A DNA stretch of 64,000 bases from Sipunculus nudus (Eukaryota > Annelida > Sipuncula > Golfingiida > Sipunculidae): positions 55,691,250 to 55,755,249 of the forward strand of contig CM049318.1 of the NCBI GenBank assembly GCA_026874595.1. The letters run 5' to 3'. The translations under genes and the position numbers were made by a program. Of the stretch, positions 6,800-62,392 are shown piece by piece. Under the pieces are notes generated by a model. It was not told the DNA's origin. It searched no databases and saw only the letters and a list, made by a program, of their open reading frames with translations. Every line of letters begins with the position of its first letter. Within the stretch, counting starts at the first letter, position 1.

Positions 6800-6847
<48 letters not shown>

Positions 6848-8499: not shown

Positions 8500-8504
8500 A
8501 ATAC

Positions 8505-11303: not shown

Positions 11304-11452
11304 TTTCTAAATATTCCCACATCAGGAGGGGGACAAACTAGATCCGTTCATTAGATCAAATTTCCCTTATTATTATTATTAAAGCTTCGTGACAACAGTC
11401 ATAAATGCTTAAAACAACCTTTAATCTTGTAAAGTTTAATATAAACACTCAC

Positions 11453-11578
11453 CCTTTAGACGACACTGTACAAGATGTGGACTTGGCTAATCCTCGTTGT
11501 GACTGGTAGCCGAGAGCAGCCAGAGAATATGTCGGGACACGGCAGGGTTTTAATACTTTCTTCTGAAGCCGATTCAAT
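11453..11578 (-). other. Putative exon B, unit 1
   Basis: This 126-base segment on the minus strand is bounded by a splice acceptor (TTAATTTGTAG) and a near-consensus donor (GTGAGT). One frame is open throughout and begins LNRLQKKVLKPC; it is basic, rich in Ser and Thr and has no acidic residue, but contains no Met. The segment recurs at 28,894-29,019 and 55,503-55,630 with both splice sites kept. The unit 3 copy is out of frame. It sits upstream of the GT31 gene on the same strand, so I think it is a 5' untranslated exon of that gene. A leader exon of another gene remains possible. Confidence 0.45.
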
Positions 11579-12659: not shown

Positions 12660-12736
12660 CTGTCCGATGCTCACAGTGGTCCTTAGGACACCGATTAGAG
12701 GCACCAGTGTCTTTCGTTGAATGTATCGCGGCTGAC
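12660..12736 (-). other. Putative exon A, unit 1
   Basis: This 77-base minus-strand segment is bounded by an acceptor (ATTTTGCAG) and a GTTGG donor. It recurs at 30,119-30,195 and 56,794-56,871 with both sites retained, while length and frame change in unit 3. It lies about 1.1 kb upstream of exon B. No frame joins exons A and B into a longer open reading frame starting with Met, which fits an untranslated leader. Confidence 0.4.
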
Positions 12737-13186
12737 CTGCAAAATGAACTTATCAAAGACAAGAACGGGGGCTTTTAATGAGTGCGTGTGAAGATAATTT
12801 TTCAATACCGTTCAGATTGGTACTAAATTCTATTCCAATATATTTTCAATTTAATTCAAATTTACACCTGGCTTGCATAGCGGGGATTGTACTTTAAAAC
12901 ATAAAATAAATATAATGTTACAGAGTTCAAACCTTTCTGCATACATACAGTGTGATCCTTTCGTGCATCTGCTGTAATGATCATCAGCATGTTGTTTTCT
13001 GTAAAACGTCGGGATTTATGCGTGTCAATCGGGTGAGGAGGACGTTAGGGTTCCTTGCCATACATGCAGGATGATGTTCGTGCAAATAGGTCGCTTTCAT
13101 ATGTGCGGGTCCCTCATGCGGATAATCAGTTATTTAATCCTTCAGTCACATTTTCTGATAATTTGCAATTTAAGTTTATTAATTTT

Positions 13187-15753
13187 AGCTCAGCTGACTA
13201 GAAGTCATCTGAGCTGTAGTAATGGTCCATTGTCTGTCTTCCGTCTGTCCTGCTGTCCGTCGGTCCGTTAGACTGGCACGTTTTGTAACCGTTAGACCTA
13301 AGAATCCAAAATTCTGCATTCTTTTAGAGGTCCCCAACACTTCCTACCAAACCGAAAACCGTGTTACTGCGACTTCGTTCCTTTGAGAAATTAAGGAAAA
13401 CCCTCAAATGTTCATTAAAATCTATTATCACACCACAGGACTGCCTTATATTCAATGACTTATAGTCAGCTGAGCTATAGTCGTGGTCCGTCGTCCGTCC
13501 GTCTGTCCGTCCGTCCGTCCGTCCGTAGATGTGGCACGTTTTGAAACCGTAAGACCTAGGAATCCAAAATTCAGCATAATGTTAGATGTCCCCAAGATCT
13601 CCTACCAAGCCGAAAACTGGGTCTGTGCGATTTCATTCCTTTGAGAAATTAAGGAAAAACCTCAATTTTTTATTAAAATCATATTTTCACACTTCAGGAC
13701 TGCCTAATATCAAAACCACTCATCTGTTTTTCCTCATATTTACCATAAATATTCCTCTATATAGTTCCTATGTACATGCCAGAAATTAAGTCTGTAAAGT
13801 ATAAATTCTTTAAGTTATGGGCCCAAACATAATTGACTTTGTAAAAAATCAGGAAAAATTAATAACTCACTTAACATGAAAAATTTTGAAACTAGAGTCT
13901 ATTTTATCAAGTATATAACTATGTTTTATTCAGATACAATTGTTTTCTCAAAAAAATAGATCTGAATTTTGTAAAATTTTAAAGTTATTAGCATAAAAAA
14001 TCAGTACCTTAAATTTTGCCCAACTTTGACCATGGCACGTTTTTTCCCTGTAAGCACCATTGATTTAATTTTCACAGCATGTAATCATAAATATTTAGTT
14101 TGTCTAAATCTGAAATTTGAAAATAAAAGCTTGAAAATTAAGCTAGTTATTGATTTTTTCTGTAGTCACGTGCTTTGATTACAGATGCAGGGTCCCACTC
14201 CAGGTCATTGGGAGTCAGCTATGCCAGGGTTTCTGATTTGTTACAGTCACTGGGGGAGATCCCCTGCTGTGACAGGTGTACAGTTATTCTCATATCACCA
14301 CCCCAATCACACAACACCCCCCCCCCCCCCCCCGCAAACCCAACCCACCAAGTGTTATGCAGTAATTGTTATTGTTTTCACTGTATCTCCTTAATTGTAA
14401 TGCTGTTTCCACTCCAATATGCACAAACATTCCTTGAAAAAATAATTCAAGGTGTAATCAAGAAGATGCAATGTTGTGTAATGTAGCATTTTTGAAGAAA
14501 TCAATTTTCTTTTATATGATTTTAACAAATATAATTGAACCCATCAGTATGCTTAAATTATTATAAAATATGAAGCACATTATGGATAAATAAAGACACA
14601 ATTAAAAATTGTGAAATCTAAATCAAGTATTATTTTTAGATATTTATTGTTTTGCAGATTTAAAAGATAAATAAACATTTGTATGCATGATGTGGTGTTA
14701 TCTGACAAGATTGAGATTTATGATGATGCAGTTGAGAATTATGAATCAACTTTTATATTCAGATATATATGTTAAATTGGAAATGTATAGAAATATAAAC
14801 TTAAATTAGAAAATAATTGATGTGATAAAAAAATGAGGATTTAATACAAACATTTGTTCATTATTTTCCTGCCTCAGCAGAATTTGAGATCAGGCTTTGT
14901 TTGCCCCGTTTTATGTTGTTTATTAGCTCTATTTCAACTGTATACATATCATTAAAAAAATACATATATATTTAATAATATATATTATACAAAAAAATAG
15001 ATCCAATTGAACAAATGTGTAAACTACTGAAATGTCTGCAGTAAATCGAAAAACCAACTAATGATCATGGTAATAGTACAGATCATTTGTTCACAACCTG
15101 CTCACATGCTTTAGTTTTAACATTAGGAAACACATGGTCAGGTCACAAAATATTTTTTGCAACAATTTCTTGCTCATCAATACAAACCAATCATATAAAC
15201 CAACCATGGCCTTTATTACCTCTTCCTCTTACACTTTATCTCCATTTGATATTATTTTCGATTTTTACCTTCAAGGTTAACGTCAGCTGAGCACAGTGAC
15301 CCATAGGTCCCTTGTTTCTTAATATTATCCTACATACCTCCTACATATTTCCTTTATTATTGCCAGACAGTAAGACCGTATTGTGTAATTTCTTGAAGTT
15401 ATGGGCCAAAACATGATTGATTTTGTAAAAAAATCAGGAAAGATATTTACTTACTTAACATGATATTTATTGAAGCTATAAACGTATATACAGACTTTGC
15501 TTTCCGGTATATAACTTTGTGTAACCAGGATTCAATTGTAAACCCAAAATTAGATATGGATTTTGTAATTTTCAAGTTATTAGCATAAAAATGAGATCAG
15601 TACCTTTAATTTTTCCCAATTGTGACCAGGGCACGTTTTTTTCCTGTAAGTACTATTGATTTAATTTCCACAGTATGTAAACGTAAGTATTTAATCTATT
15701 TAAATCTGCAATTTGATAATAAAAGCTAAAAAAATAGGATAGTTTTTATTTTT
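13187..15753 (+). mobile_element. Family-1 element, outer, interrupted
   Basis: It begins with the 29-base imperfect hairpin at 13,187-13,215 (AGCTCAG and TGAC pairing with GTCA and CTGAGCT around a short loop). A CTGTC/CCGTC tract and a segment on 'gactgcctaatatc' follow. It is interrupted at about 13,456 by a second family-1 element and resumes at 15,315, running to about 15,750. Unit 2 carries the same outer element at 30,647 without the nested copy. Confidence 0.7.
13456..15314 (+). mobile_element. Nested family-1 element, absent from unit 2
   Basis: The left end is the second arm of the family hairpin followed by a CCGTCCGT-rich tract (13,480-13,530). The right end at 15,284-15,314 has CAGCTGAGC, GACCCATAGGTC and CCTTG before TTT. 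In unit 2 the corresponding site (about 30,912-30,930) reads through without the 1.86 kb, which fixes both ends. Inside are a long C-run at about 14,317-14,333 and sequence related to 404-760. No protein is encoded. Confidence 0.75.
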
Positions 15754-15834
15754 TATGCCCCCGCCACTAAGTGGCCGGGGCATATAGTTTTACCCATGTC
15801 CGTCCTTCCGTCATTCCGAAATAAAACAGTTGTA

Positions 15835-16550
15835 CGGACTTTTTTCGCAATGCCTGCAGATATTGGCCTGATTTTTGGTGTGTGGACAGATAATGACCAG
15901 TTACAGATCGAGTTCGTGTTTCGTCCCGGTTACCCTACTTTTGACTGTTTTACGGCTCCTAAACTTAGAAAATTTCATGGAAAAAAAAATTTCTATGACA
16001 AATACACATGAACGGACTTTTTCGCAATGCCTGCAGATTTTGGCCTGATTTTTGGTGTGTGGGCAGATAATAACCAGTTACAGATCGAGTTTGCGCCTCG
16101 TTCCGGTTGACCTACTTTTGACCGTTTTACGGCTCCTAAACTTAAAAAATATCATGAAAAATAGAAATTTTCATGACAAATACACATGTACGGACTTTTT
16201 TTCGCAATGCTTGCAGATATTGGCCTGATTTTGTGTGTGTAGGAAGATAATGACCAGATATAGATCGAGTTCGCGTTTCGTCACCATTGATCTACTTTTG
16301 ACCATTTAACGGCTCCTTAACTTTGAAAATTTCATGAAAAATAGAAATTTTCATTACAAATACACATGTACGGACTTTTTTTTCGCAATGCCTGCAGATA
16401 TTGGCCTGTTTTTTGGTGTGTTGGCAGATAAAGACCAGATACAGATCGAGTTCGCGTTTCGTCACCATTGACCTACTTTTCATTGTTTTACGGCTCCTAA
16501 ACATAGAAAATTTCATGAAAAATATAAATTTCCATGACAAATGAAAATGT
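15835..16550 (+). repeat. 178-bp tandem repeat, 4 units
   Basis: Starts at 15,835, 16,013, 16,191 and 16,371 give periods of 178, 178 and 180. Each unit contains CGGACTTTTT, GCAATGCCTGCAG and a CAGATCGAGTT-type segment. Two further diverged units follow the nested insertion at about 17,502 and 17,690. Confidence 0.9.
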
Positions 16551-16559
16551 ACAGCCGTT

Positions 16560-17496
16560 TTAAGCCCTCAGCTCATAAGCTGATGGGCAATTGTCGTCAT
16601 CCAAGCTGTCCGTCTGTCTTGCCGTCAGTCTGTCCATCCGTCTGTCTGTCCGTCTGACATCCATCCGTCCGCGTCTATTAACTTTTACCTTGTGAACAGG
16701 ATTTCTCTATAAGGTTTCACTGTTGGAATTTTATTTCATCAGTGAAGATGTATATTGATAAAATCTCAGTCAAGTTCGAAGATGGGTGATCTTGACCCAT
16801 TTTTCTACATTTTAGAGCTGATTATAGAAAAACACTCAGAAGCTTATATCTCAGGAACCATTGTGTGGATTTTCACAAAACTTACTATGATCATTGGGAC
16901 TGATGGTCTGTACGTGCTGCACAATTTTAGGGGCGCCACCTGCAATTTCTAATTTTTTCATCAATTTTTATCGGATTTTTCAATTTTGGCTTTGTGAGCG
17001 GGATATCTCTAAAAGGATTCACCATTGGAATTTTATTTCATCAGTGAAGATGTATATCAACAAAATTTCGGTCAAGTGCAAAGATTGGTGACCTTGACCT
17101 ATTTTTCTTTGTTTTAGAGCTGATTTTTGTGTGTGGATTTCACAAAACTTACTATGATCATTTGGAATGATGGTCTGTGCGTGCTGCACAATTTAGGTGG
17201 CACCACCTACAATTTCTGATTATTTAATGAATTTTTATAAGAATTTTCAATTTTGGCCTGTTGTGCAGGATATCTCCAAAAGTATTCAACACAGGAACTA
17301 CAGTGCCAATGCATGACATTTACAAAATTTTGGTCAAGTTCAAAGGTGGGTGATCTTGACCTACTTTTCAAGGTCACAGAACTTGGTATAGAAAAAAACT
17401 TAGGAGCTTATTTCTCAGGAAGCATTTGGTGGATTGTTATGAAACATGATACATACCTCTCCAATTAAATTTATAACTGATTATCAGCTTTTGCTA
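16560..17496 (+). mobile_element. Family-4 hairpin element nested in family 2
   Basis: It interrupts the 178-bp tandem array. The 5' end is a hairpin at 16,564-16,588 (GCCC and TCAGCT pairing with AGCTGA and GGGC around CATA), followed by a CTGTCC/CCGTCTG tract to about 16,675. Internal direct repeats of about 250 bp contain 'ggaattttatttcatcagtg' and GGTGACCTTGACC-like motifs. The right end reads ATTCTAG followed by TTTT, the same terminal CTAG before T as families 2 and 3. No coding sequence is recognised. Confidence 0.6.
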
Positions 17497-17900
17497 ATAT
17501 TCTAGTTTTGCAATGCAATGCTTACAGATACCAGCCTAATGTTTGGTCTGTTGGCACATAATGACCACTTACAGATCTGATCATTTAGTTCGCGTTTCGT
17601 CCCAGTTGACTTATTTTTGACCATATGACATATCCAGAACATAGAAATTTCATGAAAGACAATTTTTTTTTTATGAAAATGCACGTATCGACTTTTTTTT
17701 CACAATGCCTGAGAGATACTGGCCTGATTTTTTGTGTGTTGCTTGATAATGACCCGTTACAGATCGAGTTTGCATTTTGCCCTTGTTGACCTACTTTTGA
17801 CCATATGACACCTCCTGAACTTAAAATTTTTTTACAAAATTTAACAAATGTTTCTAATTTGCCCCAGGCGAGGGCATTCGTGTCGTTCCGACACATCTAG

Positions 17901-18256
17901 TTTAAAGGCTCATATTGTAATAACTTGCTTTGTCCAGATTCAGGCAGGCCACTGGAGGTCAGCTTTGCCAGGGTACCTGTTATGTAATGGGTCACTGAGG
18001 AGATCCCCTGCTGTAAGGGGTGTACAGATGTTCTCATATCAACCCCCCCACCCCCATTGGAAATGAAAAGGAAATAAAACTTTGTTTGTCCTGTATGTAT
18101 ATGCAGAGGTGTTGTTATTGCCACCATTCCCCCTCCCCTGCCATTGAGTCTATATTGAAAATGTGTAAAATTTATTAAATTAAAAACAAAATAGCATTAG
18201 AAAAACATCATGATCTAATTTAAACATATTCGTGTCTCAGGAGAATGGGACATAAA
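17901..18256 (+). repeat. Repeat-derived stretch, unit 2
   Basis: Counterpart of 404-760; no gene. Confidence 0.7.
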
Positions 18257-20535
18257 GTGATCAGCTCTGTCATTCTAGGCCCAAAGATAAGGAGAAATTC
18301 AGAGGAGACCTGGATGAAAAACTAAGGTCTGAAAATAGATAAGGTCTATAAATACTTAACTGGGTATGAGGTAAGATCAAGGTGATTTGAAAAGACTACT
18401 TGCTTAGTGGATGTGATAATTTTGGCTATAGAGCGGGTACATTGTTTATTAAGGTGTGTAGCTGTCTCTAGTTTAGGCCCGTCCTTCTAATAGCAAACAG
18501 CCTTTCGAGCATTAATCCTGATCTACTTTCGTTGACTGATATGCTCTATGTGTGGGCGCCATACTAGCCTTTTTTCTGTAAAAAAATAACACCCAAGAAT
18601 CTGGCGGCGGCGGAATCTTTTAAATTCTCTCCTATCAATTATAAGGGTTCAAAATATTTTGGTTTGTACGCATTACTAAACAAAACCGTTTGTGTTTCTG
18701 TTGGATTTTATTTGATTCTCAAGGTGTGGCACCAGTTGCTAATGCGGTCGAGCTTGGCTTGGACTGCGTTGCGTAAATAGCAAACGTTTGAACAAGAGGC
18801 CCAGACGGCTATGTCGTCAGCGTATTATGAAACGCTGACCATTTGTCCCGTCTTTGGAAGGTAGTAAACATACATAATAAAGAGTTAAGGGCTCAGCACT
18901 GAGCCCTGGGGAGTCCCAGCTTCAAGCCTAATCTCCTAAGATTATGTACCTTTATGATTAACCGTAAGGAATCTATCTGTAAGGAATGAGAAGATTACTA
19001 GTTTATGTGGCAGATGGGATCTCACAACTTTAATGCGGAGACCGCCAGACCATACTACATCAAAGTCCTTTTCTACGTTGAGAAATGTGGGATCATGGAT
19101 TAATGCCCCTTTCCATTAAATCGTAAAATATTCCCATGAAATGCACAGTAGGTTTGCAATTCTCCCTAGACAGGGTCTGGCATTTTCTGTAGCATTTTGT
19201 GAGTTTGTCCAGACCAGAAGCCGATATGCCTTTGGATTTGGCAAGAGCTTACTGCTGCGTTGTCTTCACCGTCTTTCGTGGTCGGGTTTTCAAGAAGATA
19301 AAACAATGTTTTATTTTCATCAATTATTTGTTTAGCTGTGTTTAAGAAATCATTCTTGAAGTCAGGGTATGTCGGGATGTGGTGAATATGATGAGCAGCA
19401 ACCGTGCCGTCAGGGCGTATTAGGGGTTTAGCCTGACCTGTATTTGGGTTTAATTTAGAGTTAGACAAACATTTGAATTGTTTCAAGAATTAACCTATGT
19501 TTGTTTCATGATCTAGAGTGTTAATATAATCTGACCATTGAGATCGTTGTTTCGCTAAGATAGCTCGATCTTCTAACCTATTTACTCTATTAAACAAAGC
19601 TTAGGCTTCCGTGGTACGTGTGCGTTGTTGGTAGCGCCTGACTAGTCGCCTTAAGCTACCACCTTTTTCATTTCTTTGGTGAAGTTCCACCAGTTTCTTT
19701 TTTTTAAATTCTCTCTCTGAAGCGACGGCATTGACGACCAGAATGATACTTCGTGTTATGTCTGTTGCGATTCAATCTAACTGTAAATATGTGATAACGT
19801 CCAATTTAGAATTTAACATAATTTATAGCCTCACCTGGTGTCAGTTTAGTTTCAGATATTTAAGCTATATCGATTTTATTTTTATCATGATATTTTAATA
19901 ATTCAAGTTTACCCGCGTTTAAGCCGTTGGTGTTTACTGTGCAATATTAATACTAATGAACATATTTACACTATTTTTCAGGGTGTTTTTATAGTTCCTG
20001 TTCAGACTAAGGTTGGCCAGTGGTCATCACTGGCCAATGCTTCCAACCTGTCAATGTCCGATCGAATGGCTGTGTGGTCGACCTTCTTGCGGAAATACCT
20101 CCAGACCAATCCAGCAGCTGTCTCGCAGATCTGATCAAGTTGAACACCGGGGTTGAAGTTGTACACAAGATCGGTGAAGAGCAACAAGGTGTTCAAGTCA
20201 AAATGTGCTTTTTGTCGGAGTAGCCGAGAGTTTCGGCAGTGTCCGAGTGTTCGTCTGTCGGACTGGTGCAAGCTGTACATGTACCTGCTTTGCCATATTG
20301 ACTGTGCTGGTGCTGGTTTGTGCTCTCTTGTGTAAACTTTTGATTTACCTCTTGAATTGCAGGGCAACTGCGATAGGATGCGATAGGTGCATTTGAACAA
20401 TTTGCGCATCTCGCGTGGGCTTTGTTCATGGAACAGGCACATATTCCTCCCACAGGTTCTTTGTGGAGAATTGGTCCCGGTACCTCGGCGAAGACGGGGC
20501 AATATAGTCCTTAGGACTTTCATGTTGCGCTTCAA
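18257..20535 (-). mobile_element. Jockey-like LINE remnant, copy 2
   Basis: Same element and same insertion as copy 1, carried by the tandem duplication. The YADD codons lie at 18,814-18,825 and the gag knuckle within 20,193-20,453. It has more private changes than copies 1 and 3, for example a deletion of about 27 bases near 19,385. Confidence 0.85.
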
Positions 20536-23035
20536 TGTCTATAAATTATTTATTTTCAACAGAAAACAATACTAGTGATGTTCCGCAGATGGCATCCGCA
20601 TATGGGCCCCGCGAAAAAACAAACTGCACGCGGGACCTGCGCGAGGACCGGGCGTATAGGCGTATGGGAAAATGATAAAACAATCGTTGAACTTTTTTCC
20701 GCACAAGAGGCTCGCGTATATTGAATGGCACTCTTGATCATCTTGCATGAAAACGTGTGTTTGTATACGCCTTTTTAAAATGTAAATGAAGCAAGTTGAA
20801 AGTTTGAAGCCAGCGAAACAAATAATGTGCATATATATATACATGAATGGAAAATATACTAAACATGTAATTATACCACCTACGCTAAATTCCAAGGAAT
20901 TGAAATTAATAAACAGCTTTGTCCGAGAGCACGTCTCTATTTTGCCATTCATTAGATAAACCAATTTTTGGCATCTGTTGAAAGGATTAGTGGTCTCCAC
21001 GGTAGTATATTTTCAAGCACAAAGCATACAGCACGGCTAGTTAGTACACCTGTAACTGCTAAATCGATCTCTAAATGGCACAAGCAGGTAAAACTGAATA
21101 TTTAGTTACAGTGAGCGCACGCTTTCAGGAGTCGCTGTAGAGATATAAAAGGGTGTGCTTTATTAACATCATCACATTACATGAAATGGCATTTAGAATA
21201 AAAGTGGCTTTTGACATTGACGCAAAGCATTTTAAACATGCATCATGTTTGTTATAGGTACATCCAGTTTTATGGTTGACGGGTCTAGTTAAGCCTCTGT
21301 GGATCACCGTACTTAAGCACTGCTCGTGTAAAGACTTGGGTTACCATTATTTTTTTTCCGCCTACTAATCTGGCCTATTACCCCTGGAGGTAGGCTGAAG
21401 ATAATTCCAGGTTACACCGGGTTTAGTATGAACTGAAGTCTGGGTAACCCTGGGTTTAGTCTAAACTTAAATTAAGTATACTCGGGGTAGTCGGCATGTT
21501 TTAAACATTTTTATATGACATATTTCAGATGTGTTTGCTGGTTAAATCAATATTCCAGAGCGAAACTCCACCAAAGTTACAAATCACCTAATATCCAACA
21601 ACAGTACAAATCTTTGGCCAATAAAACAGCTTTCTCCCCAATAGACCTTTTCCAGAACTCTCTGTAAGCTGACCATAGGCTTGCAGGTGGTACACACAGT
21701 GTCTAGTAGCCAGAGACTGTGACGCACAGCAGTAGGCTGGAGATAGGGCTGTGTGTATAATCTAGGGTCCTTATCTCTTAGATTTATCTGTAAATGACCA
21801 AGGATAATTAGAATTAAATACTGACAGAAGGATAACAAGGCAGCTACTGAAGCCACACATGGAAGGACTGAGATTGATTAAAAACCGAAATTAAGATTAC
21901 AGGAGAAATAGATCAGACTTGATACATGTGCCAATCATCTCTTAAATAAAAACAAGACAGAGACAGTGTTTATATCATACCTAATTTTTAACTCAAATTT
22001 TTTATCTATCAATTAGGGTGTTATTTGGATGAATTACAGTATTTTGGAAAATATCAATAAAATCTTTCAAGCATAATGACTTGGAATATTTGCCCAACAC
22101 ATATAGAGCTTTTATCACTGGATCGTGAACCACTAGTTGTAGAAGAATGGCAAACAATCAAGGGATTAAGAGAATAAGATAAGGCATAAGCATAAAGTAA
22201 GATGAAAAGTAATAGTCCACATGATGAAGTACTTAATATTAATAAATTGTGTCACTAAGTCATAGTGAAAAATAAATTTAACATTTACTGAAGATTTCAA
22301 CATTTATGAAACAGCTTAGTTCTATTTCCTACTTATTGACAATGACCAAAAATATTAATTAGGACTATACACCAGTGATTTCTTAGGGTCACATGATGGC
22401 ACTAAATGAAAAATATATTTCATATGTAAAATATTCAAACTGACTCAATCTCAGATGGGGTGGTTCCTTATGTGTTGGCTCCTCTCACCCTGAGGTTAGA
22501 CCTCACCCTATGGTTAAAGAAATATCTGGTTTATGTCAACCTGATTGGCATATTTGGTTTTGTAGCTTAAGGGTCACTAGCCATGGAAACATGACTCACA
22601 GACCTTTATTTGAATAAACAGACTGGGCATGTAGTTATCCTCTAGTATGATCTGCTGCTTTTCCAACAAACAAAATCAATTCATCTGCTTACAGATAATC
22701 CAGGAATTCTTTCAATCATTCTGTTGAAAAAAAAAGGAAAAAGAGGCTATTATACAGAATGTAGCTGGCTTTTATACATTGAGTAAATGCTATATAATAT
22801 GACCAGGGGGTGCTGGAGCAAGCACTGTTTGTACCACTAACAGGCAGGACTTGCGAGGTGGCCTTCATAAGTGGACAGTCCTAGATTAGATCTTTTAAAG
22901 TCGCCTGAGCATTGCGCTGCTTAAATTATTTTTTATTCAACATATTACGAATGTATAGCATTCAATAAGATTCCAGCTAAAGTTACAGCTTTACAAACGT
23001 CCAGAAGGACTTAGTGTTTGATAATATTTTTTTGA
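20536..23035. other. Unit 2 region with no recognised gene
   Basis: Counterpart of 3,061-5,593. A deletion near 22,548 removes sequence that units 1 and 3 keep. Nothing here looks like a gene or RNA. Confidence 0.6.
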
Positions 23036-24078
23036 TCAGCTTTGTTTTCGGTTCAACATTTTCCATGCTTCTCTCATGTCGTCGATGTTTTTTGTATGGC
23101 CTACAAAGAACTTTTTGTCTTCTCTTAGGCGTTGTATAGTTTTTCCTTTGTGACCGGAAAGGAAACAACGACCGAGATTTACGAATGTTTTATTAAGATT
23201 TTCTACAAGGATGCCGGTCATAAACATATCATCCACAGGGTACAGTGGCACATGAAAAGACGCGGTGTACATATCCGCGACCATGTCATATGTGTACGCA
23301 AATCCTATACCGATCATATATGGAGGAGTATACGTTTTGTTGTAAACATCTTGGATTACACACCATCTATGCCACGGAGTGCATCTCCTTGGTTTTTTTT
23401 CCTGCCCACGGAACCAAAGAAGAACCGCTCTTTATGCTTCAAGTCGCTGAATAGGGTTCCTAACAATTTCCTCATATCAAAAATTGCATCATCATCAGCT
23501 TTTATGACAAACCTGGCATTTTTGCACCAGTGATGCATAAAATTCAAGGCCGTCAGACCTTTTCGGGCCAGATTCCTGTATGCTTCAATAAAATCCCCAA
23601 TGACAAGGTCTTGATTACGGTTCTGTTCCGATACGATTTTAGGACTTATGGTCCCTTCTGTGCCTTGTTTTCCTAGCACGAAAATCGTCCTCAGATGGTG
23701 CTTAGCAAATAAAGTTTCATTGCCATATGCCTGCCTGATAAACTCTCTTTGTAAAACATTCTCCGGTGAAGTATACACATAAAGGAGCGTGATTTGATCT
23801 TCAGAATTGGCAATACATTTAGATCTATTAAACATCAGCAGTTTCGGTTCACCATACTTATTGTACTCTGGAACGCCTGGCTCTAAATAACCTGTACTTT
23901 TCAGCCGCCATCCTCCCTTGGTAGCTTTCAGTTTATCGTCAGACTGTAATTCCTTGAGGTCGTTCTGCAAATCTGAAGTGTTAAATTGTCCAATGTAACT
24001 TGGAAGACAAACCAAAGCTAAACACCCAGTGATAAGCAGGAAGTTAAGTAGTGGTCCCCTGATTCTTGTTGGGATCAT
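23036..24078 (-). pseudogene. GT31 copy 2, frameshifted
   Basis: The copy is 1,043 bases against 1,044 in copies 1 and 3. The missing base lies in a T-run at 23,393-23,400 (8 T; 9 in the other copies), where the intact protein reads GRKKKPRRC. The shift makes translation end at 23,356 after about 240 residues. This keeps the anchor, stem and DDD motif but loses PPYMIGIGF and VDDMFMTG. The rest is still readable in the next frame (23,036 to about 23,390), so the break is recent. The ATG is intact. The stem resembles copy 3 (KELQSDDKLKATKG) rather than copy 1. A sequencing error in the homopolymer cannot be excluded. Confidence 0.85.
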
Positions 24079-24238
24079 CGTGTTATCTGATGCAGTCGGC
24101 CTTCACCTCACAGCTCTGCTTTTACCAGCTTATGTTTGCCGCATATTTAGTAGGTAACCTTACAATGAGAAAAGTATATGTTAAGCAACTAGCAAGAATT
24201 TATACAATTATACGCATAATGATCACGCACTGTTCCTT

Positions 24239-24239
<1 letters not shown>

Positions 24240-24280
<41 letters not shown>

Positions 24281-24282
24281 CC
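24240..24282. repeat. CT/GA microsatellite, unit 2
   Basis: Same position relative to the gene as 6,799-6,845, with slightly different length and composition. Confidence 0.9.
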
Positions 24283-24713
24283 ATTTGGACGTCCAATTAT
24301 CGATAAAGCAGTGACTTAATAGACAGGAATAAGCAAATGTTTGGCACTGGATACAACCACAACTTTCGGTTTATTTATGTGGTTTCACTCACAGATAAGC
24401 TATGAATAAAAGTTTAATTTCATCAGTGACCGCATGTGTTTCTAAATTTCTTCAAAAAGATATTGTTATAAATATATAGAGTGATATATATATTTAAATA
24501 TAAATTATATGTTAGAAGTGATTAATGAATATTCTTAACGTCATTTTACATTAAAACGTTATCGCTTTCAACTAAACTAAGAAAATCTCTGGCATCATTT
24601 GAAATCATTTTTTTCGATAAGTTACAAGCTTTTGGTAGTCCGTATATATCTATGTGTATCCATCAAAAGACTGTTGCGTATACTCTATTTTCAGTTTTTA
24701 GTTCCCGAAAAGG

Positions 24714-25930
24714 GGTGGCGCCACCTGTATTTTTTACTTTAATTAATTTTTTTTTCTATTTTTTACGATAAAATGATAACAATCATGTCAGTTTCTCAGC
24801 TGTGATTACATATCGATTCCCAAAACCTGGTGTGTTTATTGATCACAAGTGGATTCCCTATAGTAATCACCCCGTCTGTCTGTCTGTTTTTCTGTCTGTT
24901 CATCCGTCCATCCACACAAATTTGTTTCCAGATGATAACTCCAGATTGGAATGACACATGGATTTCAAACTTGACTTGCATAATGCCAACCACTAAAGCA
25001 AGAACCTATATGATTTTGGGGTCACAAGGTCAAATGTCAAAGTCATAGGATTAATTTAATAAGATTATGGCTGCATTATGAGCCAAGCTTTTCATCCAAA
25101 ACTTTCCATCCTGCGCATTTTGCTGACAGGCCAGTATGGGCAGAGCATAAATGAATTTTGGGTCACAAGGTCAAAGTTCAAGGTCACGGGCCATCTGTTC
25201 ACCAATTAGTTTTCAGATGGTAACTCCAATTTAGTTTGACATAGTGGTTTAAACCTTAACTTATATATGGCTCGCCACATCACTAAAAACCGTGTTGATT
25301 TTTGGGTCCAACGGTCAAAGGTCAAGGTCGCAGGAACTATTTCTTGAAAATAATGCATATGCATTTGAATCAAACTTCATCGCAAACCTTCCATCTTCAA
25401 GACATTGCTAACCTACCAATAGATAGGGGAAGATTCTGTTCGATTTTGGGGTCAAAGTTCAAGGTCACAGGGCCCAGCCATTCACTAATTAATTTATGGA
25501 TGATAATTCAGCTTTGGATTGATAGATTGGCTTCAACCTTGATTTATTAATGACCCATTACTTAAATAAATTCTTTTTGACATTCAGGGTCCAAAGATCA
25601 AAGTTGAAGGTCACAGGAGCCACATCTTTAAAAAGAATATGGATGCACTGTAAATCAAAGTTTTCATCCCAAACTTTCCATCTTTCAAACATGGCTTACT
25701 TGCCCAAAGTGAGGAAATCTGTAGATTTTTAGGTTACCTATTCAGAGGTCAAAGTCACTTTTTTGAAAGATTGTTACAATAAACTAAATGCTGCAAGTTC
25801 AAGGATAATAAGTTCTAAAATTTTTTTGGTCACAAGGTCATTGGTGAAGCACATGACTGTCATTCTAAATAGTTTCTATTAAATATTCTTATAGACAAAT
25901 TCAGCTGAGCGTCGAGACCAATGGGTCCCT
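24714..25930 (+). mobile_element. AGGTCA-rich repeat, unit 2
   Basis: Copy of 7,281-8,499, with the same half-site runs and a 3' end at about 25,912-25,930 (CAGCTGAGCGTCGAG, GACCAATGGGTC). The T after CTAG is changed here. Confidence 0.6.
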
Positions 25931-25934
25931 AGAT

Positions 25935-26333
25935 AATACCCCATTTTGTACACAAGCCTGGTTGTGCAACCTACAGTCGTTTTCATATACCATAGATCCA
26001 TCATTGACGAGACAAGTGGTGCAAACTATTTTTTTTTTTTCGTAGAATATGTTTTCTTCTCCGGTTGGTTTGAAGTATTCACCTGAAAGTTTGCATGTCC
26101 ATAGATCTTGGAATGATTTATCTTGTATACAAGACTGCTTGGGCCACCTACAATCAACTTTATCTTGTATCCACCTGTTTTTCGTGAAAAGTGCACATAT
26201 TTGAGGATTTTATTGGCATCTCTGATGCCACAAATTTGGATTCATGTAATGTCAGGAACATTCAATGTCTTATTTTAGTCATGCCTCTATGATTTGGCAT
26301 ATACATGGAGACGCTTGTTGACTGCCCGTTTTT
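25935..26333 (+). mobile_element. Family-3 3' fragment, unit 2
   Basis: Copy of 8,505-8,898, again abutting the family-1 start at 26,334. Confidence 0.5.
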
Positions 26334-28737
26334 AGCTCAGCTGACTTTCAGTCATGCTGTGGTATAGCGATGGGTCTTTGTCCGTCGTCCTTCTGTCTGT
26401 CCGTCCGGCCGTTAGCAGGAGTACAAGGCGTAACCGTAAGGGCTATGATCATGAACCCTATGTAGTCTTAGAGGTTCTAAAAAGATCCCCTTGAAAACCT
26501 GAAATTAGGTCATTGAGACCTATATTCTCCGAGTTACGGGGTGTGTTTCACCCCAAAAATTTCCTATAGCTAAAATTATCATCCCACACCTTCCATCTGT
26601 CACATACGGCTCACCACCAACATTGGAAGAATCATAATTATTTTGAGGTCACAAGGTCAAAGGTCAAGGCCACAGGACCCAATTCTTTAAAAAGCTCGAA
26701 GATACATTTAATGCCAAACCTTTCATCCTAAACCTTGAATCATTCACATATGGCTCACCTACTAAGTGGAAGAAGAATCTTATAGGTTTTGAGTCGCAAG
26801 GTCAAGGTCACAGGGTCCACTTCTTTAAAAAGGTTGTTGACACATTTCAAGCTAGACCTATCATTCCAAACCTAGCATTGACATCGCTTCTCTGCCAACA
26901 GGAGAAAAGACCTGTTGATTTTGAGGTCAAAGGTTAAGTTAACTCACTGACTTCTTGCGTTGAGTCATTTTTAGGCAAACTTTTCAACCTGTATCTTACA
27001 TCTGTCTTAAATGGCCTACCAATATGGGAAGAACCCGATTGATGTTGAGTTCAAAAGGTCAGAGGTCAAGGTCACAGTACTTTATTGTCCCAAATGCTTT
27101 TAAATATATTTCAAGCTGAACTTGGTATCCCAAACCTCGTCTTTCACATGTGCCCCCTCTATGCACCACTCATTTTGATTCATACTTCATATTTATGGGT
27201 CTTTTTACTTTAAGAAATAAATAATTGGTTTTAGGGTCAGCTGGTCAGGAGGTTAAAGGTTGGAGGTCAAAATTATTCACACATTGGTTGCCAAGTGATT
27301 AATCCAGTTTTAAGTGGTCAGTAGTTTAAGTGGTTTGTAGTTACCCATCACTGTAAAAAGGATGCTATTGATATGTGGGCAAAAGGCCAAGGTCATAGGC
27401 CAGGGATTTTCCCAATTAAAACTTACTTTGTAGATCATCTATATTTTTCTTGTATATACCATTGCACTCCAACTAGTACATCTTACTGTGTGGCCGTAAT
27501 TGTGAGCGACACTTGTGATATATGATTCCCTTTGTATCAGCCCTTGAAAGATAAGAACATCGTCAGTGCATAACAAAAACACTGTTGCCCGAGGTAGGTT
27601 TAAGACTTAGAGTATTGTATAATGGTTTAGCTACTGATTTATAAGATGATGGGAACATTTTGCAGTTTATTTTATGGAATCATAGCAATAAACTTAGTTT
27701 CCCAGATATCTAAATATTTTTTTATATAAATCATCAGATAAACCAGCAAGTGTTTGTTCTGATAATATGTGGGTCTGTACCTGGATTTAGGATGGCTTTA
27801 TTTGTTTTACAAGAGTTTTAGTAATGCTTCCTGCATTTCTTTTCTTTGAGGTTTTGCAGTTTACCTACCCTGCTGATCCGACTAAAAAAGCAAGGCGATA
27901 ATTAGAAAAAAAAGGTCTTAAACCTTTTTCATTTGCATGTCGAAAGATATGATATAAGAGCTCTCCAACCTTATCATGTCTTTTGGATTGTTTTTGACAT
28001 TCATTAATGTAACATTCTTTTGAGAAATTATCACAAGTTTGGTCTCTTATTGGGGGATATGTGATATCAAATATCAGGCTTGTCAGAAATCCAATATGTC
28101 TGCTAGGTAGCCACCTTAGAAATCCTTTTGTCAGTGCAGTTTCTGTGATTTTTTGTTAATATATGGTCCCTGTTAGAGGATGTTTGTTGTCGGATTTCAG
28201 ACTTGACAGAAATCTAAATGTGGCCACCAGGTAGCCATTTGAATTCCTATTGAACATATTCTCTCAAGAACTGTTAAAATGAATGCTGTGGGACATAAAT
28301 TAATGTAATCTAGCAAAGGATTGGGTCAAAGGTTTCTTTACAACTATGACCATCTTTTATGAAAGTTGGTTTGTATTGCATTAAAATTCACACAAAAACA
28401 TCCGTTTCTCAATAATTCTTAAATGGATTTTAATTTTTTTTTGCTATATATGTTGTCCTTATATTTGGCCTTTGTGGTGTTCTTATTTAGACTGATGGGT
28501 ATCAATTAAGCTATGGGATCAGTTCCTGTTAGCACAACAAGCATACATTTTGCTTCAGACCATTAAGTCATCGTGTTATAACTAGATATATTTGATCAAT
28601 ATTTCTGTTATCATAGAAAATTTTCAACATAATTGGCAAATAGGTTCTTCAGAATTTTGACTGCAAGTTGTGAATCTTAGCCCATGATGTTGCAGGTCAT
28701 GCTTGGCAGCTGAGCGTCATGATCCATGGGTCACTTG
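26334..28737 (+). mobile_element. Family-1 element, unit 2
   Basis: Copy of 8,899-11,303. The 5' hairpin here is nearer to the family form (AGCTCAGCTGAC). AGGTCAAAGGTCA occurs at 26,654-26,666. The 3' end is at 28,707-28,737. Confidence 0.65.
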
Positions 28738-28893
28738 TTTCTAAATATTCCCATAATCAGGAGGGGGACAAACTAGATCCGTTCCATACGTCAAATTTCC
28801 CTTGTTATTATTATTATTATTAAAGCTTCGTGCCAACAGTCATAAATGCTTACAACAACCTTTAATCTTGTAAAGTTAAATATAAACACTCAC

Positions 28894-29019
28894 CCTCTAG
28901 ACGACACTGTACAAGATGTGGACTTGGCTAATCCTCGTTGTGACTGGTAGCCGAGAGCAGCCAGAGAATATGTCGGGACACGGCAGTGTTTAAATGCTTT
29001 ATTCTGAAGCCGATTCAAT
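28894..29019 (-). other. Putative exon B, unit 2
   Basis: Counterpart of 11,453-11,578, with the same length, acceptor and GTGAGT donor. The frame is still open, with a few amino-acid changes (for example LNRLQNKAFKHC). Confidence 0.45.
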
Positions 29020-30118
29020 CTACAAATTAACAAATATTAGTTTACTCTGTTTAAAGTTAAATCTAAAAGCATATAAGTATGGACATGGATAAATGAACTT
29101 CCTATGAATGTAACATTTATAAGGTATATAAATGACTCAATATGTATGAAACAATTCATATGAATCATGCTCCTGATATGACAGAACAAGTTCAAATTAT
29201 GAAAAAATACTTACTGATCATAAAATGACGTACTGACTTAATAAGAGGTCTATGTTGCTTTATGTTTGCTTTTCTATACTGAACTGTTACTTCAACCTAA
29301 TAATGAAACCTTTACAGATTTAGTATAAATACTAGTTACTCGCAGCAGTAAATAAGCAAACATCACATTTAAATCATTATTTCTAGATAACACAAACATA
29401 TGGAGTCATCATTAAGATACTCCTACACAGCAACACAGCCATGCATGGATGACTTTGTCCTGTTATGAGGGCTAAGCTCAGGTCATGTAATTGGTGACAT
29501 ACTGTAGCCAAGACTATCTAACAACACCGAAAAAATTATCCGAGCATGTCCGTACATTGGAACAAGCACTGTAACACATGTATTAGGTATATACACGAAC
29601 TTTATCTGTTCCAAAAACACTACAAAATGAAGAAATGCTAATGACTCCAGTATTTAGACTACTTAATGAACCTTTTACATAATTATCAGTTGATAAATGA
29701 AAGTAAATGTGTGATTACTTTTGACATTTCGGCATATTGTCGAGCAACATGCTTCTCGCCTTACGGGTTCAGGCTGATCTGATCACCAAAAAATGCACGA
29801 ACTGTTTCATTAGTCTTAGCTGAAAAGCTTGATATTTAAGCACGTATTTTTATTAAAACGAATATATACATTTGACGCTTCAACTTGAAATAAGTGAAAG
29901 TATTTGGTATATAGGTTGTTTTTCCGTAGCTGGTAGAGTAAATATGTGAACCTCTCGGGTTACAACTGTATCTCCAAAATGGTTATTGACATTCCTGTTT
30001 GTCTACCAAGCGGCAGACCTATAAATGACAATTTAAAACGTAACAATCTTTTAGATGCATTTCATTGGCACATGAAATGATGCACAAATTTCTGTAACAG
30101 ACCCAGTGATTAACCAAC

Positions 30119-30195
30119 CTGTCCGATGCTCACAGTGGTCCTTAGGACACCGATTAGAGGCACCAGTGTCTTTCGTTAAATGTATCGCGGCTGAC
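30119..30195 (-). other. Putative exon A, unit 2
   Basis: Counterpart of 12,660-12,736, with the same 77-base length and splice sites. Confidence 0.4.
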
Positions 30196-31049
30196 CTGCA
30201 AAATGAACTATCAAAGACAAGAACGGGGGCTTTTAATGAGTGCGTGTGAAGATGATTTTGCAATACCGTTCAGATTGGTACTAAATTCTATTCCAATATA
30301 TATCCAATTTAATTCAAATTTACCCCGGGCTTGCATAGCCGGGATTGTACTATAAAACATACTGTAAAAATATAATGTTACAGAGTTCAAACCTTTCTGC
30401 ATACATACAGTGTCATCCTTTCGTGCATCTGCTGTAATGATCATCAGCATGTTGTTTTCTGTAAAACGTCGGGATTTATGCGTGTCAATCAGGTGAGGAG
30501 GACGTTAGGGTTCCTTGCCATACATGCAGGATGATGTTCGTGCAAATAGGTCGCTTTCATATGTGCGGGTCCCTCATGCGGATAATCAGTTATTTAATCC
30601 TTCAGTCACATTTTCTGATAATTTGTAATTTTAGTTTATTATTTTTAGCTCAGCTGACTAGAAGTCATCTGAGCTGTAGTAATGGTCCATTGTCTGTCTT
30701 CCGTCTGTCGTGCTGTCCGTCGGTCCGTTAGACTGGCACGTTTTGTAACCGTTAGACCTAAGAATCCGAAATTCGGCATTCTTTTAGAGGCCCCGAACAT
30801 CTCCTACCAAACCGAAAACCGGGTTGCTCCGACTTCGTTCCTATCAGAAATTAAGGAAAACCCTCAAATTTTCATTAAAACCTATTATCACACCACAGGA
30901 CTGCCTTATATCAAATGATTTTTCTTCTTAATATTATCCTACATATCTCCTACATGTTTCCTTTATTCTTGCCAGACAGTAAGACCGTATTGTGTAATTG
31001 TATCCGCCAAAACGAAGTTTTGCGGATACTATGTTTTTGACCGGGTTCC

Positions 31050-31072
31050 GCCGCCGCCGCCGCCGCCGCCGC
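31050..31072. repeat. CCG trinucleotide run
   Basis: A pure CCG/CGG run lies just inside the family-3 5' hairpin. It sits where other families carry a CCGT/CTGT tract. Confidence 0.9.
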
Positions 31073-31222
31073 GTTCGTTTCCGGAGAACTCCTCTGAGAC
31101 TACTGGACAGATTTTTCCGAAACTTACACAAATTATCGGGTCACATGTGAACTGGTGCCTAACCAAGTGATCTTGACCTCTGACCTTTCGTCTCTGCCCA
31201 GCGTCCGTTTGTGCGTCTGTTT

Positions 31223-32460
31223 CCACACATAAACCCATATATCTCGGGAACCGTTTGACCGATCCGGAAAAAAATTTTACACAAATGTAGCCCTGGGAAA
31301 GCTTTATAACATACACAACAAAAGGTGGCGCCACCTGCAACCATGTTTGCACAGTGTCCATCTTTTCATCTGCCTGGGGTTAAAATCTCTCATATCTCTG
31401 CAGTGATTTGACTAATTCACCTAAAATTCGGCATGCATATACATCCTAGATAGCTCTCTCGATTTTGTGACAGGTGGCGCCACCTACATTCACGTTAACG
31501 CTCCACACATAATCCCATATATCTCGGGAACCATTTGACCGATCCGGAAAAAAATTTTACACAAATGTAGCCCTGGGATAGCTTTATAACATACACAACA
31601 AAAGGTGGCGCCACCTGCAACCATGTTTGCACAGTGTCCATCTGTTCATCTGCCTGGGGTTATATCACTCATATCTCTGCAGTGGTTTGACTAATTCACC
31701 TAAAATTCGGCATGCATATACATCCTAGATAGCTTTCTCGATTTTGTGACAGGTGGCGCCACCTACATTCACGTTAACGCTCCACACATAATCCCATATA
31801 TCTCGGGAACCGTTTGACCGATCCGGAAAAAAATTTTACACAAATGTAGCCCTGGGATAGCTTTATAATATACACAACAAAAGGTGGCGCAACCTGCAAC
31901 CATGTTTGCACAGTGTCCATTTGTTCATCTGCCTGGGGTTAAAATCACTCATATCTCTGCAGTGGTTTGACTAATTCACTTAAAAATCAGCATGCATATA
32001 CATCCTAGATAGCTTTCTTGATTTAATGACAGGTGGCGCCACCTACATTCACGTTAACACTCCACACATAAATCCATATATCTCAGGAACCGTTTGACCG
32101 ATCCGGAAAAATTTTTTTACACAAATGTAGCCCTGGGATAGCTTTATAACATACACAACAAAAGGTGGCGCCACCTGCAACCATGTTTGCACAGTGTCCA
32201 TTTGTTAATCTGCCTGGGGTTAAAATCACTCATATCTCTGCAGTGGTTTGACTAATTCACCTAAAATTCGGCATGTGTATACATCCTAGATAGCTTTCTT
32301 GATTTTATGACAGGTGGCGCCACCTACATTCAAGTTTATGCTGCAGACATCCAAGCTCATATCTTGGGAACCGTTTGACCAATCAGGAAAAAAATTTTAC
32401 ACAAATGTAGCCCTTGGATAGTTTCTCGTTCAAATAACAGGTGGCGCCACCTACAGTCAT
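31223..32460 (+). repeat. 280-bp tandem repeat with paired palindromes
   Basis: Units start at 31,223, 31,503, 31,782 and 32,062 (periods 280, 279 and 280), with a diverged fifth. Each unit carries the palindrome AGGTGGCGCCACCT twice. Starts are at 31,323, 31,472, 31,613, 31,751, 31,882 (one mismatch), 32,031, 32,163, 32,312 and 32,439. Confidence 0.95.
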
Positions 32461-32962
32461 GTTTATGTGGCAGAGATCCATTCTAATATTTAACACGTAA
32501 CTCTATATCCCCTTGCCACTCAATCAATGCCTTACTTCACCCGTCCTTCTCTGATTTTGGCGGATACACGTAGTCGCTTGTCGACTACCCGTATTCTAGT
32601 TTCTTGAAGTTATGGGCCAAAATATAATGAATTTTGTAAAAAATCAGGAAAGATATTTACTCACTTAACATGATATTTATTGAAGCTATAAACGTATATA
32701 CAGACTTTGCTTTCCGGTATATAACTTTGTGTAATCATGATTCAATTGTATACCCAAAATTAGATATGGATTTTGTAATTTTCAAGTTATTAGCATAAAA
32801 ATGAGATCAGTACCTTTAATTTTTCCCAATTGGGATCAGGTCACGTTTTTTTACTGTAAGTACTGTTGATTTAATTTCCACAGTATATAAACATAAGTAT
32901 TTATTCTATTTAAATCTGCAATTTGATAATAAAAGCTTAAAAATAGGCTAGTTTTTAATTTT

Positions 32963-33318
32963 TTTAAAGGCTCATATTGTATTAACTTGCCTTGTCCAGA
33001 TTCTGGCAGGCCACTGGAGGTCAGCTTTGCCAGGGTACCTGTTATGTAATGGGTCACCGGGGAGATCCCCTGCTGTAACGGGTGTACAGATGTTCTCATA
33101 TCAACCCCCCCCAGACCCATTGGAAATGAAAAGTGAATAAAACTTTGTTTGTCCTGTATGTATATGCAAAGGTGTTGTTATTGCCACCATCCCCCCCCCC
33201 CCCTCCCCGCCATTGAGTCTATATTGAAAATGTGTAAAATTTATTAAATTAAAAAACAAAATAGTATTAGAAAAACATCATGATCTAATTTAAACATATT
33301 CGTGTCTCAGGAGAATGG
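32963..33318 (+). repeat. Repeat-derived stretch, unit 3
   Basis: Counterpart of 404-760; its C-run at about 33,190-33,202 is longer than in units 1 and 2. Confidence 0.7.
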
Positions 33319-35619
33319 GACATAAAGTGATCAGCTCTGTCATTCTAGGCCCTAAGATAAGGAGAAATTCAGAGGAGACCTAGATGAAAAACTAAGGTCT
33401 GAAAATAGATAAGGTCTATAAATACTTAACTGGGTATGAGGTAAGATCAAGGTGATTTGAAAAGACTACTTGCTTAGTGGATGTGATATTTTTGGCTATA
33501 GAGCGGGTACATTGTTTATTAAGGTGTGTAGCTGTCTCTAGTTTAGGCCCGTCCTTCTAATAGCAAACAGCCTTTCGAGCATTAATCCTACTCTACTTTC
33601 GTTGACTGATATGCTCTATGTGTGGGCGCCATGTGGCCTTTTTTTTGTAAAAAAATAACACCCAAGAATCTGGCGGCGGCGGAATCTTTTAAATTCTCCC
33701 CTATCAATTATAAGGGTTCAAAATATTTTGGTTTGTACGCTTTACTAAACAAAACCGTTTGTGTTTCTGTTGGATTTTGTTTGATTCTCAAGGTGTGGCA
33801 CCAGTTGCTAATGCGGTCGAGCTTGGCTTGGACTGCGTTGCGTAAATAGCAAACGTTTGAACAAGAGGCCCAGACGGCTATGTCGTCAGCGTATTATGAA
33901 ACGCTGACCATTTGTCCCGTCTTTAGAAGGTCGTTAACATACATAATAAAGAGTTAAGGGCTCAGCACTGAGCCCTGGGGAGTCCCAGCTTCAAGCCTAA
34001 TCTCCTAAGATTATGTACCTTTATGATTAACCTTAAGGAATCTATCTGTAAGGAATGAGAAGATTACCAGCTTATGTGGCAGATGGGATCTCACAACTTT
34101 AATGCGGAGACCGCCAGACCATACTACATCAAAGGCCTTTTTCACGTCGAGAAATGTGGGATTATGGATTAATGCCCCTTTCCATTAAATCGGAAAATAT
34201 TCCCATGAAATGCACAGTAGGTTTGCAATTCCCCCAAGACAGGGTCTGGCATTTCTGTAGCATTTTGTGAGTTTGTCCAGACCAGCAGCCGATATGCCTT
34301 TGGATTTGGCAAGAGCTTACTGCTGCGTTGTCGTCACCGTCTTCCGTGGTCGGGTTTTCTAGATGATAAAACAATGTTTTATTTTTATCAATTATTTGTT
34401 TAGCTGTGTTTAAAAATTCATTCTTGAAGTCAGGGTAATTCGGGATGTGGTGTTTTTGCAAATAGATCTGCACGAGAATATGTTGAGCAGCAGCCGTGCC
34501 GTCAGGGCGTATTAGGGGTTTAGCCTGACCTGTATTTGGGTTTAATTTAGAGTTATACAAACATTTGAATTGTTTCAAGAATTCACCTATGTTTGTTTTA
34601 TGATCTAGACTGTTAATATAATCTGACCATTGAGATCGTTGTTTCGTTAAGATAGCTCGGTCTTCTAACCTATTTACTCTATTAAACAAAGCTTAGGCTT
34701 CCGTGGTACGCGTGCGTTGTTGGTAGCGCCTGACTAGTCGCCTTAAGGCTACCACCTTTTTCATTTCTTTGGTGAAGTTCCACCAGTTTCTTTTTTTTAA
34801 CTTCTCTCTCTGAAGCGACGACATTGACGACCAGAATGATACTTCGTGTTATGTATGTTGCGTTTCAATCTAACTGTAAATATGTGATTACGTCCAATTT
34901 AGAAGGATTTGACATAATTTATAGCCTCACCTGGTGTCAGTTTAGTTTCAGATATTTAAGCTATATCGATTTTATTTTTATCTAGATATTTTAATAATTC
35001 AAGTTTACCCGCGTTTAAGCAGTTGGTGTTTACTGTGCAATATTAATACTAATGAACATATTCACACTATTTTTCAGGGTGTTTTGATAGTTCCTGTTCA
35101 GACTAAGGTTGGCCAGTGGTCATCACTGGCCAATGCTTCCAACCTGTTAATATCCGATCGAATGGCTGTGTGGTCGACCTTCTTGCGGAAATACCTCCAG
35201 ACCAATCCAGCAGCTGTCTCGCAGATCTGATGAAGTTGAACACCGGGGTTGAAGTTGTACACAAGATCGGTGAAGAGCAACAAGGTGTTCAAGTCAAAAT
35301 GTGCTTTTTGTCGGAGTAGTCGAGAGTTTCGGCAGTGTCCGAGCGTTCGTCTGTGGGACTGGTGCAAGCTGCACATGTACCTGCTTTGCCATATTGGCTG
35401 TGCTGGTGCTGGTTTGTGCTCTCTTGTGTAAACTTTTGATTTACCTCTTGAATTGCAGGGCAACTGCGATATGATGCGATAGGTGCATTTGAACAATTTG
35501 CGCATCTCGCGTGGGCTTTGTTCATGGAACAAGCACATATTCCTCCCACAGGTTCTTTGTGGAGAATTGGTCCCGGTACCTCGGCGAAGACGGGGCAATA
35601 TAGTCCTTAGGACTTTCAT
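33319..35619 (-). mobile_element. Jockey-like LINE remnant, copy 3
   Basis: Same insertion as copies 1 and 2, with YADD codons at 33,882-33,893 and the gag knuckle within 35,289-35,549. It is nearly identical to copy 1 from about 33,490 onward and differs from copy 2, unlike its flanks. Confidence 0.85.
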
Positions 35620-62345: not shown

Positions 62346-62392
62346 TGAATACATGTATGAAATTTCAGATGGGTCAATGTCACATACGAAGA

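Follow-up and report, generated by a model that had tools for sequence, protein, structure and literature searches.

Helentron-associated elements that are non-autonomous and protein-less (HINEs) are known from several animals, and the described systems closest to the present case are DINE-1 of Drosophila and the Cg_HINEs of the oyster Crassostrea gigas. DINE-1 has a 5' inverted repeat (IR) with partial complementarity to the terminal repeat, and a '(CCGT)n(CTGT)n' stretch, or 'GTCY-rich microsatellite repeat', has been reported (PMC2374699). Cg_HINEs have a 5' subterminal inverted repeat (subTIR), a complementary IR and a microsatellite, which is GTCY, GTCC or GTCK in 6 of 11 elements; HINE families of mutually unrelated sequence occur in one genome (group 3), and these elements could not be related to any of ten autonomous Helentrons in Repbase (PMC7492417). 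In mite HINEs, the 3' subTIRs lie 38-60 bp from the 3' end, and it is unclear whether Ts are shared between the two ends (PMC4067079). Helitron2 elements have hairpins at both termini (PMC5148889), and (GTCY)n elements of Lepidoptera appear as a title in reference lists. Here, a stretch of 64,000 nucleotides from the peanut worm Sipunculus nudus (assembly GCA_026874595.1, contig CM049318.1, positions 55,691,250 to 55,755,249 of the forward strand; hereafter, the window) is analysed, in which several repeat families are, with high confidence, to be read as HINEs.

The initial annotation had proposed that five families with unrelated ends follow one plan: a 5' hairpin, a CCGT/CTGT tract or CCG run, internal tandem repeats and, in families 1, 2 and 3, a 3' end with the inverted first arm of the 5' hairpin, a second hairpin and CTAG or CTTG ahead of Ts. 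This plan is complete in families 2 and 4 and nearly so in family 1, only partial in family 3 and unclear in family 5. The anatomy matches the published HINE/DINE-1 scheme; most of the named elements do share the plan, but it is not new. In particular, the 5' hairpin with its CCGT tract, taken at the outset for a non-standard feature, is already in print for DINE-1 (PMC2374699) and Cg_HINEs (PMC7492417), i.e., from fruit flies and oysters; what is new here is further HINE families.

Both complete families were recovered when the whole window was scanned for (i) a 5' arm with a near inverted copy by TT; (ii) an inverted copy of that arm beside a 3' stem-loop; and (iii) CTAG or CTTG, then TT. 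These criteria were chosen after the elements had been seen, and neither the tract nor the array was among them. The scan returned family 2 as one row (15,755-17,900) and family 4 as four overlapping rows (30,999 or 31,002 to 32,599), and it missed families 1, 3 and 5. There were no rows on the minus strand and no paired ends in 20 dinucleotide shuffles, and the 5' candidates numbered 402 versus 109 in the shuffles. SubTIRs of about 11-15 bp with an inverted subterminal 3' copy are present in families 2 and 4, are seen in family 1 across two copies (a and b, see below) and were not found in family 3. Hairpins were judged by folding each stretch against 200 shuffles, and inverted arms against 2000 single-letter shuffles of the target. 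By the former measure, the 5' hairpins announced at 13,183/13,187, 15,754, 16,564 and 31,000 hold (in no case did any of 200 shuffles fold as well), and that of family 5 does not stand out (77/200). Unless stated otherwise, the elements and their parts lie on the plus strand.

The family 4 element (31,000-32,599) opens with a 5' hairpin (31,000-31,029; z -6.51) that contains the subTIR GTATCCGCCAAA. It is followed by a (CCG)8 run (31,048-31,072), detected by Tandem Repeats Finder (TRF), which takes the place of the GTCY tract (zero GTCY in 80 bp), and by a tandem array of 4.5 units of 280 bp with 92% matches (31,222-32,464; TRF). At the 3' end, the subTIR TTTTGGCGGATAC (32,555-32,567) repeats the 5' arm inverted in 12 of 13 bases (0/2000 shuffles as good), although family 4 had not been credited with such an arm, and the stem-loop GTAGTCG-CTTGT-CGACTAC, then CCGTATT CTAG and then TTT, completes the element (32,570-32,599; z -2.57, 3/200 shuffles). 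A perfect palindrome, GGTGGCGCCACC, occurs at ten places of the window, namely 7,284, 24,714 and eight within the family 4 array (31,324-32,451), at most two per monomer. The family 3 array holds a one-base variant of it at 17,196, and ATATCTCNGGAACC is common to both arrays. On these shared motifs, the arrays of families 3 and 4 may be distant relatives.

The family 2 element (15,754-17,900) is split by a family 3 element at 16,564-17,505. Its 5' hairpin (15,754-15,784; -13.1 kcal/mol, z -5.33) includes the subTIR ATGCCCCCGCC (15,755-15,765) and precedes a short GTCC/CCG tract (15,797-15,818) and an array of 4.0 units of 180 bp (15,831-16,542; TRF and self-BLAST), related units of which pick up again at about 17,515-17,830. 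The 3' subTIR reads GGCGAGGGCAT (17,867-17,877; 0/2000 shuffles as good) and, in a copy near 0.4 kb, GGCGGGGGCAT; the match to the inverted 5' arm is 10 of 13 bases at 17.9 kb and, for the 0.4-kb copy, 11 of 13, each with 0/2000 shuffles as good. Finally, the stem-loop GTGTCG-TTC-CGACAC is followed by AT CTAG and then TTT (17,880-17,900; z -2.76, 3/200 shuffles as good).

Much of the window consists of segmental copies which differ by transposon insertions, so that the same site can be seen both filled and empty. The site of family 2 is empty at 32,963 (within 32,900-33,000), where it reads T7, and also in a copy near 60,150; at the filled site, the element is preceded by T6 and followed by T3. 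For family 4, the empty copies at about 15,390 (within 15,345-15,440) and at 59.8 kb read GTGTAATTTCTTG, with T3, and at the filled site T2 precedes the element and T3 follows it. From these counts, any target duplication is at most TT, and the two extra Ts at the filled sites may belong to the element, judging from the bases alone. The family 3 element has inserted into a T-run (T4 + T4) of the 180-bp repeat of family 2, whose four other units are uninterrupted at this point and read T5 to T8. Copy b of family 1 is surrounded by T-rich sequence of copy a, its left edge blurred by substitutions. All three clean insertions are in runs of at least three Ts (nominal 4e-4), or four of four when the blurred copy b is counted (nominal 3e-5). 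As such runs cover 7.4% of plus-strand positions, this is unlikely to be due to chance, though the test is post hoc. The window shows directly where families 2 and 4 end, that insertion is into T-runs without long target duplication, and that it is repeated and nested: within 64 kb, HINE families whose satellite-like arrays differ have gone on inserting, including into one another.

The tract next to the 5' hairpin was borne out. A GTCY- and/or CCG-rich tract lies inside all 14 of the 5' ends examined, family 4 having (CCG)8 without GTCY; the count of GTCY plus CCG in the first 80 bp averages 11.2 against a background of 0.87, and each end scores at least 5, as do 1.5% of the 80-bp windows taken as background. 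Family 2 scores lowest, with 2 GTCY and 3 CCG. These ends are not independent: family 1 and its variant contribute ten, several are copies made by segmental duplication, and similarity was used to collect most of them. Conversely, the window has nine GTCY peaks (six or more per 60 bp, those within 100 bp of each other being merged), all of which begin 24-49 bases inside one of those 5' ends. The GTCY/CCG tract belongs regularly to these elements.

Family 1 follows the plan with some gaps. Copy a is represented by its 5' end and GTCY tract (13,183-13,458), with a hairpin at 13,187-13,215 (z -4.24, folded from 13,183), and copy b (13,459-15,314) breaks into it at about 13,459; the segmental partner of copy a at 30,642 is without the insert, and the segmental copies at about 30,925 and 59.7 kb do not contain copy b. 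Copy b (also placed at 13,456) is missing the first 5' arm and has a GTCC tract at 13,486-13,526. Its 3' end (15,282-15,314) consists of the subTIR GTCAGCTGAGC, the 12-base near-palindrome GACCCATAGGTC, CTTG and then TTT. The subTIR pair of this family joins the arm at 13,187 in copy a to the 3' end at 15,282 in copy b: the 11-base arm GCTCAGCTGAC recurs inverted there in 11 of 11 bases (0/2000 shuffles), and the 13-base arm matches the same end in 11 of 13 (2/2000 as good). Two fuzzy patterns found related family 1 3' ends in 6 and 7 rows, at seven places together, one row of the 6 being the palindrome on the other strand. A second long copy, with both ends present, lies at 59,436-61,217; a 5' end with a long GTCC tract is found at 40,364-40,462 and, as a tandem duplicate, at 42,536-42,634; and a variant 5' end occurs at 26,328-26,412, as well as at 8,893 and 48,199. 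TRF called no tandem array in family 1, only the tetranucleotide tract, and the 42.5-kb copy has a two-copy duplication at 72%. The expected internal repeats are thus present in families 2, 4 and 5 (TRF) and, in diverged form, in family 3 (BLAST), but not as an array in family 1.

Family 3 (16,564-17,505) has a 5' hairpin (16,564-16,588; z -4.48), a GTCY tract (16,604-16,656), diverged repeats with a period of about 302 bp and 75% identity that TRF does not call, and CTAG (17,502-17,505) ahead of TTTT. The ending is CTAG before Ts in families 2, 3 and 4, and CTTG before Ts in family 1. Of the three families credited with an inverted arm and a second hairpin, the arm stands in families 1 and 2 and was not found in family 3, and the hairpin stands out by folding in family 2. 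Family 5 (62,330-62,905, minus strand) has a GC-rich 5' end, a GTCC tract (62,818-62,877) and a 144-bp array (62,435-62,807; TRF). Its hairpin has a z of -0.30, the folded stretch having stopped a few bases before the end of the second arm; its 3' arm is weak (104/2000 shuffles as good); and no empty site defines its ends. Family 5 was accordingly rejected as a clean fifth case. A motif, TCAAGGTCA / TGACCTTGA, lies mostly in or near the internal repeats of several families: it occurs 13 times (7,747; 8,029; 9,368; 17,089; 17,368; 25,178; 25,459; 26,802; 27,066; 48,956; 62,543; 62,559; 63,667), some occurrences being segmental copies of one another; 30 shuffles gave 0.4 on average and 2 at most. 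Presumably, it resembles the extended half-sites of nuclear receptors.

With regard to coding capacity, 146 stop-to-stop open reading frames (ORFs) of at least 70 codons, out of 243 of at least 60, were scanned with Pfam. The matches were Galactosyl_T (5 members), RVT_1 (1), weak PPR_2 (2) and weak BPTI_nem (1). No Helitron-like Rep, helicase or DDE/transposase domain was found among them at E 0.01, a search that shorter or broken fragments could escape, and three Rep-like motif patterns had no match in the six frames of the window. The families therefore lack transposase coding capacity among these ORFs, as expected of HINEs.

A possible mechanism can be outlined. Each HINE is read as two terminal recognition modules around an internal sequence, often a satellite-like array. 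In the 5' module, the subTIR and the adjoining inverted repeat form the hairpin, with the GTCY/CCG tract next to it; in the 3' module, the same subTIR, inverted, stands upstream of the stem-loop and CTAG/CTTG. An autonomous Helentron elsewhere in the genome, with Rep, helicase and endonuclease, would act in trans: its enzyme would peel off one strand and halt at the 3' stem-loop, and the copy would be joined between the Ts of a T-run. Here, we infer the enzyme, the single-strand intermediate and the role of each hairpin. The locus bears on two questions: the identity of the enzyme that mobilizes families whose ends are unrelated, and the reason for the GTCY tract next to the 5' hairpin in both flies and oysters. 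The initial annotation had suggested that several lineages may share one rolling-circle enzyme. One answer would be that a single Helentron enzyme moves such families by recognizing both end shape, in which a subTIR can base-pair with the repeat adjoining it at the 5' end and with its counterpart at the 3' end, and the GTCY/CCG tract. The tract would, on this view, be functional at the 5' end rather than a microsatellite carried along passively. This idea predicts the tract beside the 5' hairpin in flies, in the oyster and here, and in 14 of 14 ends; against it are the single microsatellite among the oyster elements of PMC7992393 and the CCG run without GTCY in family 4. On balance, it appears unlikely.

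The derivation from Helentrons put forward by the initial annotation is upheld by the anatomy, the insertion into T-runs, the paralogous empty sites and the fact that no transposase gene was found in the window. Neither long target duplications at the resolved sites nor a DDE transposase among the 146 ORFs turned up. In this regard, cut-and-paste miniature inverted-repeat transposable elements (MITEs), mobilized by a DDE transposase, would share with these families the inverted subterminal repeats and the transposase not found in the window; a TT duplication is possible, and DINE-1 itself was formerly classed as a MITE family (PMC2374699). Yet the 3' inverted repeats are subterminal, with a stem-loop and CTAG beyond them, the duplication is at most TT instead of the fixed-length duplication with terminal inverted repeats of a DDE MITE, and the 5' hairpin, GTCY tract and 3' stem-loop match a HINE, all of which makes MITEs a very improbable reading. 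Equally improbable is that these are canonical Helitrons (Helitron1), with a 5' TC, a 3' hairpin plus CTRR and insertion between A and T. The CTAG of families 2, 3 and 4 does fit CTRR, with a hairpin upstream in 2 and 4 (decayed in 3), and some oyster elements are reported to combine features of Helitrons with those of Helentrons (PMC7992393); nevertheless, the resolved ends have no 5' TC, subTIRs are present, the resolved sites are inside T-runs and not at A|T (the ends of families 2 and 4 are in T-runs, with ATG/GTAT after the run), and CTTG in family 1 fails CTRR. As for chance, or a by-product of low-complexity or tandem sequence, the plan was indeed assembled by eye and families 3 and 5 fail parts of it, but no paired ends arose in 20 shuffles, the 5' hairpins are far from shuffles and the empty sites fall at the predicted ends; such an origin is almost certainly wrong.

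Several points weigh against the HINE reading itself. Taken alone, 3' candidates are at chance level in the window (4 versus a shuffle mean of 4.15). The 3' ends of family 1 fold no better than shuffles (26/200 and 76/200 as good), its near-palindrome being indistinct from them, and the 3' end of family 3 has a decayed hairpin (z -0.34) and no inverted arm (best 8/13; 547/2000 shuffles as good). The 3' subTIRs stop 22-32 bp before the 3' end, nearer than in mite HINEs. The two Ts by which the filled sites of families 2 and 4 exceed the empty ones also fit a 2-bp TT duplication. Family 5 has no clear ends, families 2 to 5 are present as few copies in the window, some of them truncated, and no autonomous partner is seen there; likewise, no named autonomous partner of oyster-type HINEs was found in the literature examined, and PMC7492417 states that no link was possible. 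Besides, of the oyster subTIR-bearing Helitron-like elements, 33% were reported to have a 5' IR and just a single one to have a microsatellite, and insertion was between A and T in 86% of cases in that set (PMC7992393), so the plan is not universal.

Regarding the layout of the window, self-BLAST pairs 1-13,461 with 17,497-30,921 (95.2% identity) and 404-7,237 with 32,963-39,783 (95.6%), with remoter pieces at 55-63 kb. Positions 1-43,078 are made up of tandem segmental copies at 94-96% identity, with starts spaced about 15-17.5 kb, each with a galactosyltransferase-like ORF (PF01762) at 5,594-6,661, 23,036-24,102 (broken over two frames) and 38,173-39,240. A 2.16-kb tandem duplicate (38,751/40,917) has 99.3% identity. 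The ORFs at 1,604-2,116 and 34,165-34,692, both on the minus strand, are among those repeated in the segmental copies; the RVT_1 match (3e-7) is in one of the 146 ORFs, and the ORF at 1,604-2,116 is itself without a match. Outside families 1-5, two related arrays (44,344-44,668 and 46,103-46,367) have a 21-bp unit around the palindrome TAATTCGTGCGCACGAATTA. Exact patterns of the ends of families 1 and 2 had no match in viral contigs, nor had those of family 1 in prokaryotic genome contigs; since these sets contain viruses and prokaryotes, the expectation of related loci there is low.

Among known systems, Helitron2 differs from the present families in that the FoHeli set includes coding elements and has other terminal motifs (PMC5148889). 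The Pearl elements of bivalves, which PMC7492417 counts as HINEs, are, by description and not by sequence comparison, similar in being non-autonomous with short satellite-like central arrays (via PMC7492417, PMC5139131). HINE-Mo and the Helentrons of mite, mosquito and fly share the subTIRs, the 3' palindrome, T-rich insertion, a variable number of Ts at the ends and empty sites without target modification; they differ in that partners have been identified for several families, HINE-Mo has no separate IR and the 3' subTIRs are further in (PMC4067079). DINE-1 shares with the present families a 13-bp subTIR, a partial 5' inverted repeat, (CCGT)n(CTGT)n, central repeats, a TT target and a stem-loop after the 3' subTIR, although its subTIR sequences are others and family 4 has (CCG)8 rather than a tetranucleotide tract (PMC2374699). 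In Cg_HINEs, the monomers of 13 clusters measure 138-181 bp, whereas units of 280 and about 302 bp also occur here and family 1 is arrayless. By anatomy rather than by alignment to the oyster consensus sequences, the two sets agree in the 5' subTIR, the IR, a mostly 4-nt microsatellite, the satellite-like array, the 3' subTIR and the palindrome, in a T-rich target for which no target site duplication was found, and in families of unrelated sequence that stand side by side (PMC7492417).

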